Source: Oscillospiraceae bacterium (lineage in GTDB: Bacteria; Bacillota; Clostridia; Oscillospirales; Oscillospiraceae). Taken from it: a stretch of 55,003 nt of DNA. The translations under genes and the position numbers were made by a program. Of the stretch, positions 20,912 to 31,187 are shown in pieces. The stretch covers positions 1-55,003 of the forward strand of contig SVLE01000009.1 in assembly GCA_015068065.1 (NCBI GenBank). Reading direction: 5' to 3'. The notes below the pieces were generated by a model, which saw only the letters and a list, made by a program, of their open reading frames with translations, had not been told where the DNA came from and searched no databases. Within the stretch, counting starts at the first letter, position 1. Every line of letters starts with the position of its first letter.

Positions 20912-21187
20912 CAATATCAAAGGCGTTGATGGGAATAAAGACAGGTGCTCCCCTCTGCAGAGAGCCGGCGGTTGGTGCAAGCCGGTGTGCGGCCACCTGT
21001 GCATAACTGGTCCCTGAGCCGTCCGCCCGAACCATGTGCAGTAGAGCGGAACGTTTGGCCCCGTTATCGGCCGCAGCCTTGTTAGAGGCTTATGAGGACT
21101 GTTTCGGAAACGGACAGTCGAAGCAGGGTGGTACCGCGTGTATATCACGCCCCTGACCTTATATTCTAAGGTCAAGGGCTTTTTTTA
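20912..21187 (+). promoter_or_regulatory. T-box riboswitch, probable leucine tRNA sensor
   Basis: The T-box proper, AGGGTGGTACCGCG, lies at 21125-21138. A terminator (21149-21187, stem about GCCC-TGACCTTA with TTTTTTT) follows. Upstream are the Stem I features GAGAGCCGG...GGTTGGTGCAAGCCGG (20961-20985) and the GAACG...CCCCGTTATC Stem III (about 21039-21067). Pairing GGGA (20931) with TCCC (21011) and ACAGGTG (20941) with CACCTGT (20994) leaves a specifier loop whose 3' strand reads GCATAACTGG; CTG at 21007-21009 fits the specifier position, i.e. leucine. The UGGU bulge matches an A discriminator, as in tRNA-Leu. Uncharged tRNA would permit readthrough into leuA. Confidence 0.92.
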
Positions 21188-22967: not shown

Positions 22968-24314
22968 TTAGAGGCCCTGTGCCATCATAGCCTGAGCGAT
23001 ACGCTTGAAGGAAGCGATATCATTGCCGGCGATCAGGTCATAGCCAAGACCGTACTGCTCCGCAGCAGCGGCGGAGGCATCGTAGATGGAACTCATAATG
23101 GCCTGCAGGCGTTGATCCACCTCTTTGCGGGTCCAGCTGTAGCGGATGGAGTTCTGGGCCATCTCCAAAGCGGAAACCACCACGCCGCCGGAACCGGCAG
23201 CCTTTGCGCCCGCGGTGAGGATCTTGGGGCTCATGCGCAGCAGCTTGAGGGCTTCCGCAGTAGCAGGCATATTGGCCGCCTCCACATAATAGCCAGCTCC
23301 GTTGGCGATGATACACACGGCATCCTCCACGTCGATCTCATTCTGGGTGGCGCAGGGCATGACCACATCCGCAGCTACCTCCCAAGGCTTTTTACCGGGG
23401 TGGAATTCCACACCGAACTTCTCAGCGTAGGGCTGCACCTTGTCTGCGCCGCCCTGACGCATTTCCACCATGAAGTCAAACTTCTCCTGAGTGGTGATGC
23501 CATCAGGATCGTAGATATAGCCGTCGGGACCGGACAGGGTGACCACCTTGCCGCCCAGCTCCGCAACCTTGCGGCACACGCCCCAGGACATGTTACCAAA
23601 GCCGGAGACAGCAATGCGCTTGCCCTGCATGCTCTCGCCCTGATGCTCCAGCATGCGGTTCAGGAAGTACACAGCACCAAAGCCGGCGGCCTCCTGACGG
23701 ATCTTACTGCCACCGTAGGTCAGGCCCTTACCGGTCAGAGCACTGCTCTCCGCACGGCCGGTCAGCTTCTTGTACGCACCGTACAGATAGCCGATCTCAC
23801 GGGAGCTGACGCCGATATCACCGGCGGGCACGTCGGTGTCTGCACCGATGTAGCGGTACATGGAGTTCATAAAGCTCTGGCAGAAACGCATGATCTCCCG
23901 GTCGCTCTTCCCTCTGGGATCAAAGTCCGCGCCGCCGCCCGCGCCGCCGATGGGCAGGCCGGTCAAAGCGTTCTTGTAGGTCTGCTCAAAGCCAAGGAAC
24001 TTAACCACGGAGGCGTTGACAGTGGGATGGAAGCGCAGACCGCCCTTATAGGGGCCGATGGCGCTGTTGAACTGGACACGGTAACCGTGGTTGGTGTGTG
24101 CCACACCATTGTCATCCACCCAGGGTACCAGGAAAGAGAACATACGCTCCGGCTCCACCATGCGGGTGAGCAGGTCCATCTTCTCGTAGCGGGGGTCGTC
24201 CACAGCAGGCTCGATCATCTCAAGCCATGCCTGAACGGACTGGAGATACTCCGTCTCATTCGGGTACTGATTTTTCAGATTATCCAGTACCCGCTCAACA
24301 TACTTGTTGTTCAT
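22968..24314 (-). CDS. Glutamate dehydrogenase paralogue lacking catalytic lysine
   Basis: A 448-residue protein colinear with hexameric glutamate dehydrogenase: substrate domain (about 1-200), Rossmann domain (SGFGN at 237-241), C-terminal return. Canonical glutamate dehydrogenase has K89, K113, K125, D165, N373 and S380 (Clostridium symbiosum numbering). Here K90, K114, D166 and S381 are kept, but the catalytic lysine (in GGGKGGSDF) is G126 within GGAGGGADF, and the substrate-site asparagine is G374 (KAAGSGG instead of KAANAGG). The dinucleotide region also differs (GFGNM, and EAANMP for EGANMP). It probably cannot catalyse the normal deamination; a structural, regulatory or altered-substrate role is inferred. 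It lies 13 bases downstream of a canonical gdhA and is probably cotranscribed. Confidence 0.9.
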   Translation of the reverse strand: MNNKYVERVLDNLKNQYPNETEYLQSVQAWLEMIEPAVDDPRYEKMDLLTRMVEPERMFSFLVPWVDDNGVAHTNHGYRVQFNSAIGPYKGGLRFHPTVNASVVKFLGFEQTYKNALTGLPIGGAGGGADFDPRGKSDREIMRFCQSFMNSMYRYIGADTDVPAGDIGVSSREIGYLYGAYKKLTGRAESSALTGKGLTYGGSKIRQEAAGFGAVYFLNRMLEHQGESMQGKRIAVSGFGNMSWGVCRKVAELGGKVVTLSGPDGYIYDPDGITTQEKFDFMVEMRQGGADKVQPYAEKFGVEFHPGKKPWEVAADVVMPCATQNEIDVEDAVCIIANGAGYYVEAANMPATAEALKLLRMSPKILTAGAKAAGSGGVVVSALEMAQNSIRYSWTRKEVDQRLQAIMSSIYDASAAAAEQYGLGYDLIAGNDIASFKRIAQAMMAQGL

Positions 24315-24327
24315 GGGAACCCCTCCC

Positions 24328-26038
<1,711 letters not shown>

Positions 26039-29795: not shown

Positions 29796-29820
29796 ATCCA
29801 CACCTCTTTTATTTATAGGT

Positions 29821-29829
29821 ATTATATCA
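29821..29829 (-). promoter_or_regulatory. Extended -10 promoter of the GIY-YIG gene
   Basis: Minus-strand TGATATAAT (29829-29821), an extended -10 with a perfect TATAAT. No good -35 is seen. The start codon at 29795 follows 25 bases on. Confidence 0.6.
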
Positions 29830-29837
29830 TAAATCTG

Positions 29838-29866
29838 TTGCCTTTGCAGCTGTTGCGTGGTAAAAT
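29838..29866 (+). promoter_or_regulatory. Promoter reading into the trpS leader
   Basis: TTGCCT (29838-29843), 17-base spacer, TAAAAT (29861-29866). Transcription would start near 29873, 20 bases before the left inverted repeat, so the whole element would be in the trpS 5' UTR. Confidence 0.65.
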
Positions 29867-29894
29867 AACTTGATATCTTGTGTGCCTTGTGCAC

Positions 29895-30170
29895 ATAGCC
29901 TGAGCAACATAGTCCGAACCCGCTCTGCGGGGCGGATTTTCGCGCCAGACTTTATTTTATTCTTTGCCGGGCTATCGCCCGGCGGCATCATTCAATTTTG
30001 CCTGACACAAAAATACGCGCCCGCAGAGTCGAAGATTTCTGAGTACGTATAGGAAGGTAGTGCAAGGCACCGGCTTGCAGACGGGCTTTGTGCCCATCAA
30101 AAGGCGGCAACGAAGCAATACCGATGTGTACGTATTCAGAAATGGGTTCGGACTATGTTGCTCAGGCTAT
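29895..30170 (+). ncRNA. Structured leader or MITE-like element with 27-bp inverted repeats
   Basis: No gene is supported here. The outer arms (29895-29921 and 30144-30170) are a perfect 27-base inverted repeat starting ATAGCCTGAGCAACATAGTC. Inside are two further arms: A, CTCTGCGGG (29923-29931) with CCCGCAGAG (30020-30028), extended by ATTTT/AAAAT and capped by GCCGGGC-TATC-GCCCGGC (29966-29983); and B, 30035-30049 with 30129-30143 (15 pairs, one G-U) containing TGCAAG/CTTGCA and GGGC/GCCC hairpins. Together they make a three-way junction. An alternative pairing GTGCCTTG (29882-29889) with CAAGGCAC (30063-30070) would break arm B's inner hairpin. It ends 18 bases before trpS with its ribosome site AAGGAG outside. 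Alternatively it is a TA-flanked MITE (the arms end in TA, as in IS630/mariner insertions). It is not a T-box. Confidence 0.6.
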
Positions 30171-30188
30171 AAAAAAGGAGCCATCACA

Positions 30189-31187
30189 ATGGACGAAAAG
30201 AAAGTTATGCTCTCCGGCATTCAGCCCAGCGGCGACCTGCATCTCGGCAACTATCTGGGCGCCATCAAGAACTGGGTGGACCGCACGGAGGAATTTGATA
30301 ATTACTACTTCATGGCCGATATGCACACCATCACCGTGCGTCAAAATCCGGCCGACCTGCGCCGCCGCACGCTGGAACAGCTGGCTCAGTATATCGCCTG
30401 CGGCCTTGACCCGGAAAAGAACACCCTGTTCATTCAGTCCCATGTGCATCAGCATGCGGAGCTGGGCTGGGTGCTGCAGTGCTACACCATGTTTGGCGAG
30501 CTGTCCCGCATGACCCAGTTCAAGGACAAATCCGCCAAGCACAAGGAAAACATTAACGGCGGTCTGTTTACCTACCCCTCCCTCATGGCAGCGGACATCC
30601 TGCTCTATCAGCCCGACTTTGTTCCCGTGGGCGAAGATCAGAAGCAGCACTGCGAACTGACCCGCGATGTTGCCCAGCGCTTCAACAGCATTTACGGCGA
30701 TGTGTTCAAGATCCCCGAGCCTTATATCCCCAAAGCGGGCGCCCGTGTCATGGGTCTGACCGCCCCGGACAGCAAGATGTCCAAGTCCATGCCCGAGGGC
30801 TGCGTATTCCTGATGGAAAAGCCCGAGGACATCCAGCGCAAGTTCAAACGCGCCATTACCGACAGCGATACGGAAAACTGCGTGCACTATGACCCCGCCA
30901 ATAAGCCCGGTGTTGCCAACCTGATGAGCATCTACTCCGCCGTGACCGGCAGAAGCTACGAGGCCATTGAGCAGGAGTTTGCCGGATGCGGCTACGGCAA
31001 GTTCAAGCCCGCCGTGGGCGATGCTGTTGTAGAGTGTCTGCGCCCCATCCGCGAGGAGGCCACCCGCATTCTCGCCGATAAGGCCTATCTGGAAAACGTG
31101 TACAAGGCCGGCGCAGAAAAGGCGTCCTATGTAGCTAACAAAACTCTGCGCAAGGTATATAAGAAGATTGGCTTCGTGGCCCGCTGA
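30189..31187 (+). CDS. trpS: Tryptophan-tRNA ligase
   Basis: Charges tRNA-Trp. The 332-residue class Ic synthetase shows the HIGH motif IQPSGDLHLGN (11-21), the NINGGLFTYPSLMAADILLY substrate pocket segment and KMSKS at 196-200. The ATG at 30189 follows AAGGAG; longer in-frame extension runs through the inverted-repeat element and is rejected. Most Clostridia regulate trpS with a T-box; here the leader holds the unusual structured element instead. Confidence 0.97.
   Translation: MDEKKVMLSGIQPSGDLHLGNYLGAIKNWVDRTEEFDNYYFMADMHTITVRQNPADLRRRTLEQLAQYIACGLDPEKNTLFIQSHVHQHAELGWVLQCYTMFGELSRMTQFKDKSAKHKENINGGLFTYPSLMAADILLYQPDFVPVGEDQKQHCELTRDVAQRFNSIYGDVFKIPEPYIPKAGARVMGLTAPDSKMSKSMPEGCVFLMEKPEDIQRKFKRAITDSDTENCVHYDPANKPGVANLMSIYSAVTGRSYEAIEQEFAGCGYGKFKPAVGDAVVECLRPIREEATRILADKAYLENVYKAGAEKASYVANKTLRKVYKKIGFVAR

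Follow-up and report, generated by a model that had tools for sequence, protein, structure and literature searches.

The question raised by this locus was whether the non-coding stretch between the promoter and the ribosome-binding site of trpS is a structured regulatory RNA or a mobile DNA element, two readings that the initial annotation had left as equal alternatives. In the window (the whole 55,003-nt stretch of DNA analyzed), this stretch was bounded by the perfect inverted repeat that had been described, with 27-nt arms (29895-29921 and 30144-30170) that were 100% complementary. Its extent, originally given as 276 nt, was refined to a body of 270 nt (29898-30167) once the TA duplications on its left (29896-29897) and right (30168-30169) were set aside. 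The body consisted, in order, of a left terminal inverted repeat (29898-29921, plus strand; within the 27-bp perfect repeat and conserved among copies), arm A (29923-30028, minus strand; a 106-nt hairpin), a spacer, arm B (30035-30143, plus strand; a 109-nt hairpin and inverted relative of arm A), and a right terminal inverted repeat (30144-30167, minus strand), recognized by its complementarity to the left one. The preferred strand differed between the two hairpins, arm A reaching -59.6 kcal/mol on the minus strand against -45.1 on the plus, and arm B -48.5 kcal/mol on the plus strand against -41.6 on the minus, so that both strands need to be considered. No gene was evident by eye in the body, and mechanical open reading frames crossed it, one being a GTG frame that begins at 30060 and continues across arm B as far as trpS.

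The surroundings of the element agreed with what had been reported. The promoter-like TTGCCT-17-TAAAAT (29838-29866, plus strand) lay upstream and outside of the element, and by eye was also present in element-free leaders of relatives; promoter-like sites numbered 2, vs. 0.8 in shuffles. A Shine-Dalgarno-like AAGGAG began a few bases 3' of the element, and the gene downstream (30189-31187, plus strand) matched Pfam PF00579 (class I synthetases, W and Y; E = 1.2e-75), which fits its naming as trpS, tryptophanyl-tRNA synthetase. The gene upstream, on the opposite strand, encoded a GIY-YIG protein. A tRNA-like 3' end, prompted by GGGTTCGGACT near the right repeat, was considered and dropped, as ARAGORN found no tRNA in the window.

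The predicted minimum-energy fold was the proposed three-way junction, a Y shape in which arm B adjoined the outer stem. The folding energy of the 316-nt stretch was -156.6 kcal/mol on the plus strand and -163.7 kcal/mol on the minus strand (z = -12.1 and -13.3, respectively). A chance inverted repeat or an assembly artefact is a negligible possibility, even with the genome being a draft in 71 contigs and 87.6% complete, given that none of 100 shuffles was as stable on either strand and that homologous copies with differing flanks occurred in three genomes.

The genome that holds the window (G000, 1.68 Mb) carried full copies on contigs C39 (which holds the window), C49 and C7, with a further 77-nt piece on C41; its other copies were 84-91% identical to the window copy. 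Within the genus, real copies were found in 3 of 64 genomes, the other two being sister species: G066 carried a 58-nt copy beside three full ones, and both copies in G067 were shortened, to 228 and 74 nt, the latter being weaker evidence for retained ends because its right end was only 7 bases long. A search with the terminal-repeat pattern (≤3 mismatches) returned the same three of 64 genomes and none with the reversed control. An earlier draw of 60 relatives, to which G066 and G067 did not belong, had given no copy outside of the own genome. Matches in G032, G019 and G004 spanned only 24-29 bases and were discarded after reading. An exact search with the terminal repeats gave no match in the genome-contig and viral-contig collections, nor did a distant BLAST of plasmids and phages with the window element and L164 as queries. 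The element was thus short and non-coding, with terminal repeats, and dispersed in multiple copies over its own genome and two sister species, as is a miniature inverted-repeat transposable element (MITE).

By eye, several copies (those at trpS, purE and a radical SAM gene, and C7, C53 and C174) had a Shine-Dalgarno-like sequence no more than about 10 bases away. On C41 of the own genome, the first TAG of the truncated copy was the stop codon of a RelA/SpoT-type gene (L035, 2939-2941). Two copies in another genome, G785 (L192 and L194), were each near a different glutamate-dehydrogenase-type gene. The window itself contained two adjacent genes on the minus strand (22968-24314 and 24328-25689), the first with GGAGGG where the second had GGGKGG, which we take to be glutamate-dehydrogenase-like, the first lacking the lysine of the GGGKGG motif.

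Sites without the element were compared at three loci. At trpS, the element was absent from the 190 bases before the start codon in all 23 relatives' leaders examined (drawn from 60 genus genomes with a trpS match, own genome counted), and the G066 leader was also element-free although its TrpS was 97% identical. The leader of G032 read GTGCACA-TA-AATAAAGGAGCC, vs. GTGCACA-TA-(element)-TA-TAAAAAAGGAGCC in the window; the leader of G066 had no TA at the insertion site. At purE (contig C49), 6 of the 8 relatives searched had contiguous flanks, with 5-14 nt between them, and of three empty sites compared there was a single TA in G028 and no TA in G066 and G064. At the C64 site of G066, short element-free leaders were present in G000 and five other relatives (2 of 8 were unreadable), with TTTG-AGAGGAAG in G000 vs. 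TTTA-(element)-TAAGAGGAAG in the filled site. A single TA was thus present at two of the three empty sites, with TG in its place at C64 in G000. Among the nine two-ended copies, six had TA on both sides (the trpS copy, C49, C34, C64, C13 and C325) and three did not (CA/TG in C7, AA/TA in C53, and C174, which was diverged). The simplest reading of these alignments is a 2-bp TA duplication, with the sites of relatives having drifted later.

A one-armed relative of the element was present in G380, a genome from another family of the order, in 13 full copies of 161 nt, 11 of which were identical in sequence (a 14th, truncated copy was left out of the count). All 13 were flanked by exact TNA triplets (TTA in 7, TAA in 3, TGA in 2 and TCA in 1). 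These copies are direct evidence of recent DNA transposition of the one-armed relative. The TA target duplication of IS630/Tc1-mariner elements was found in the window subfamily only, and the wider family does not share it since the G380 relative has a 3-bp TNA. In the same genome, terminator-like hairpins at L111, L112 and L113 (AGAACCTGTTTTCA...TGAAAACAGGTTCT, followed by T-rich DNA) nearly matched the terminal repeat of the 161-nt element; one may be derived from the other.

The window element is therefore very probably a non-autonomous terminal-inverted-repeat DNA transposon, or MITE, whose 270-bp body with two inverted hairpins of about 107 nt was inserted at a TA between the promoter and the ribosome-binding site of trpS. 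There is good support for its having moved as a non-autonomous DNA transposon, and the insertion most simply took place after the species split from its nearest sampled relative. A transposase encoded elsewhere would recognize the terminal repeats and move the element in trans.

A search for such a partner gave none with the ends of the window subfamily in the 64 genus genomes, which were incomplete drafts, and none in G380, also an incomplete draft, at ≤1 mismatch. At four places in G380 with an unpaired end, no transposase was seen by eye among the listed open reading frames. In G785, where 16 of about 26 unpaired ends were examined, none of the 16 had a transposase with matching ends; most of them were elements of about 164 nt with a decayed second end, or short remnants. 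Among 20 of 34 open reading frames near G785 ends scanned against Pfam there was one phage-type integrase and no DDE transposase. A transposase-bearing insertion sequence in G380 (L117, about 50-1350, contig C2), presumably of the ISAs1 type as judged from its protein, adjoined a truncated copy of the 161-nt element; it was rejected as partner because by eye its own ends differed.

The position of the element between the promoter and the ribosome-binding site would suit a cis-regulatory RNA of trpS, such as a riboswitch or attenuator, and a switch-like second pairing between 29882-29889 and 30063-30070 had been pointed out. The complementarity exists, but it was read as chance, because its 5' half lies outside of the element, in the old trpS leader, and the flanks of other copies differ. 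With all 23 relatives' leaders lacking the element, the same element preceding purE, a radical SAM gene and others, and no terminator-like site found, regulation of trpS by this RNA is very improbable. The structured-RNA reading was thus unsupported as far as a trpS regulator is concerned, since the element also precedes unrelated genes elsewhere, and held in part in another sense, in that the arms were conserved, covarying and strand-specific in small elements of many lineages; of the alternatives posed at the outset, it was the MITE that was supported, by the scattering of copies, the TA at either side and the sites lacking the element. Of the 13 one-armed copies in G380, 3 were oriented with co-directional flanking genes, 5 against and 5 unclassifiable (gene calls were crude), and as there was no orientation bias, a cis role in mRNA is not favored. 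Relative to replication, no orientation bias of G785 copies was seen by eye, with the origin assumed at position 1; this was not used as evidence.

The absence of a T-box at trpS, already remarked upon, was corroborated: the only match in the window at the Rfam gathering score was a full-length T-box leader elsewhere (20917-21157, plus strand, 112.8 bits), and the four weak Rfam matches at 29800-30250 (E ≤ 10) did not include a T-box (RF00230). By eye, relatives' trpS leaders look too short for a T-box. A small hairpin between the promoter and the ribosome-binding site recurred, by eye, in many element-free trpS leaders of the genus, and is a possible simple form of trpS leader regulation. With the element inserted, the trpS leader would become a long Y-shaped RNA adjoining the ribosome-binding site, and is probably a processing or insulating feature and not a tryptophan sensor. 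By analogy with Correia transcripts, whose terminal repeats are sites of RNase III cleavage according to the portion available of a review (PMC10969869), the structured leader would be expected to be cut or ignored.

What distinguished the element from an ordinary MITE was its interior. Elements of the wider family measured about 164 nt with one arm and about 278 nt with two. In a set of 14 two-armed elements (7 from the window genus and 7 from six other genomes; arms folded separately), the 3' arm folded more stably on the reading strand in every case, and the 5' arm did so on the opposite strand in all but C7 (13 of 14). L071, L079, L083 and L089, split as a single arm or part, were excluded from this count, and all four favored the reading strand. 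Across the 28 arms, G-U pairs and single A.C mismatches numbered 105 and 12 on the preferred strand vs. 43 and 49 on the other strand. The preference is informative because, as stated in the text available of PMC2267715, folding confined to one strand is limited to sequences that depend on G-U pairs. With RNA energies it held for 27 of 28 arms and with DNA energies for all 28, and therefore it cannot separate RNA from single-stranded DNA. Hairpin length was 106-110 nt in all 26 hairpins cut from two-armed elements (two of them hand-trimmed from 114; the shortened C174 arm and the unparsed L071 were left out). By eye, arms had in common a basal bulge and two internal loops, AAGGC/AACGNAG and, below the apical hairpin, GCA/AA, with not all three present in every arm. 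Owing to the inverted arrangement of the two hairpins, a transcript would have one of them in the correct orientation at its end whichever way the element is read, and in either transcript the 3' hairpin was the better-folding one.

A covariance search of relatives had been proposed as a check of both readings. A model built from arm A alone (R1) matched 15 of 394 genomes of the order (E ≤ 0.01) and, with arm B not being part of it, matched the opposite-strand arm B of two copies, C53 (40.0 bits) and C49 (27.3 bits). A second model (R2) was set aside, as no more than 18 pairs were present in its automatically derived structure. A model of 20 arms (R3), which had arms A and B in its training set, scored arm A at 88.5 bits on the minus strand and 28.3 bits on the plus strand, and arm B at 66.5 bits (30037-30141, plus strand). 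In the order, R3 matched 144 of 394 sampled genomes (E ≤ 1e-4; eight of them supplied training arms), corresponding to 112 of 314 good-quality genomes and 65 of 168 genera; copy numbers were lower bounds, with at most 9 candidates scored per genome. In an even draw over the phylum, R3 matched 14 of 398 genomes, four inside the order and ten outside; it is not a generic hairpin detector, as 384 genomes had no match. Those matches outside of the order that were read showed by eye the same loop motifs.

In the 20-arm alignment, 78% of cells paired, vs. 54% when shuffled and 39-47% when slid, and the covariation score was 0.62, vs. 0.22 when shuffled and 0.14-0.21 when slid. Pairs changing on both sides were 40 of 43, vs. 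32.8 in shuffles. These figures are inflated because the structure was derived from the same sequences; the count of pair types was weaker (99 vs. 90.9 shuffled, reached in 23 of 500). Compensatory changes were thus above controls, as in a structured RNA; DNA palindromes also covary. Among 47 sources scanned with R3 there were 25 adjacent arm pairs, in 23 genomes, of which seven had contributed training arms; the arms diverged in all 25, with the left one on minus and the right one on plus. L145 had two same-strand arms 158 nt apart, which are not an adjacent pair. Some arms also matched R3 on the wrong strand, always at a lower score. The single-arm strand test is biased, and the 5'-arm result less so, because the models were built on the preferred strand, partly from the genomes searched.

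While the hairpin was retained, the ends changed. Terminal repeats varied by lineage, and hairpin length, internal loops and covarying helices were kept. Many ends, not all, began with TA, and a few boundaries were uncertain, as flanking inverted repeats extended the match. The arm pattern was also found in seven metagenome contigs of named origin (Syntrophomonas and Syntrophomonadaceae, Clostridiaceae, Bacillota and Firmicutes), of which five had enough flank for comparison. Pairs of contigs with like ends had cores 87-97% identical and 45-nt flanks 62-93% identical; in pairs with unlike ends, cores were 75-83% identical and 45-nt flanks 42-60%. At single loci, a one-armed element of about 133 nt lay, by eye, inside the apparent coding frame of a transcription-regulator-like gene (L083; G214, C6), and two full two-armed copies lay in the same orientation about 470 bases apart (L133, 126-403 and 870-1151; G122, C4).

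Two accounts of the arms are to be weighed. In the first, the arms encode a structured RNA, active in trans or in cis, which is carried along by MITEs and has a conserved protein of the host or of the transposon as its binding partner. The recurrent internal loops, the covariation above shuffled and slid controls, the excess of G-U pairs over A.C mismatches on the preferred strand and the constant arm length argue for this account, and the conservation of the arms while ends were exchanged favors a separate role for them; it has against it that no Rfam family matched and that the G380 copies showed no gene-orientation bias, which leaves it possible but short of probable. In the second, the arms are simply long subterminal ends that stem from an autonomous transposon since lost, with a structure that serves transposase binding or strand processing and has no separate role. 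Their location just inside the terminal repeats and their mutually inverted arrangement (25 of 25 pairs) fit a role as transposon ends, one-armed elements resemble further deletions, and the strand preference was found with DNA energies too. This account is likewise possible but short of probable, as the terminal repeats change among lineages while the arms stay, no autonomous parent was seen in the genomes searched, and one-armed G380 elements move well with a single arm.

A broader proposal is that one old hairpin module of about 107 nt, marked by two recurrent internal loops and functional as RNA or single-stranded DNA, was combined with several unrelated transposon ends across the phylum, either singly or as an inverted pair; this is unlikely on present evidence. 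If true, a transcript from either direction would present one correct, outward-reading copy beside a terminal repeat, and the module could be a handle for a protein or for an RNA-guided step in transposition.

Several known repeats resemble the window element in part. Correia elements (CREE/nemis) have TA targets and, to our knowledge, are confined to Neisseria. They are likewise small non-autonomous elements with terminal repeats, often just upstream of genes, and an inverted pair of strand-specific hairpins, present in the window element, is not described for them in the available part of PMC10969869, a comparison made by description. RUP and BOX of Streptococcus pneumoniae are likewise tightly folded repeats with pairing terminal repeats, and transposition of RUP by IS630-Spn1 has been hypothesized; according to the portion of PMC3049150 available, they are almost absent from other streptococci except S. 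mitis, whereas the window hairpin occurs across the phylum with differing ends. Efa-1 and Bcr1 likewise lie between genes and are predicted to form a double hairpin (Efa-1) or a stem-loop; going by description, they differ in that the families are listed per species and that Efa-1 structures are predicted on both strands in the accessible text of PMC2267715. IStrons, which combine an IS element with a group I intron, are likewise a structured RNA travelling inside a DNA transposon, as outlined in the accessible text of PMC4227781. Unlike in these, no intron or ribozyme family of Rfam matched the window element.

At the Rfam gathering score, there was no match for the window element, and eight related loci gave only two tRNAs. 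HMP2_1032, a 106-nt palindromic candidate and one of 3161 reported in PMC8040213, drew attention by its length and was rejected as the same element because the text, in the portion available, places it entirely in Bacteroidetes; the two were set apart by description alone. A previous description of the element was not found in the partially accessible literature searched, from whose scope subscription papers and supplements were excluded.

The element is a MITE, and as such of a known kind; what is new is the conserved inverted pair of hairpins. Bacterial MITE families are usually restricted to about a genus, and their interiors decay freely. Here the hairpin would be retained because the structure itself has a function, most simply that of a protein-binding RNA or of single-stranded DNA during transposition. 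With an interior that is widely kept and strand-specific, and ends that are exchanged, it becomes directly testable whether the selected part of a bacterial MITE includes a structured nucleic acid beside the terminal repeats. The repeat is common in the order, in 144 of the 394 genomes sampled, and can pass for a regulatory RNA of a leader, as at this locus.
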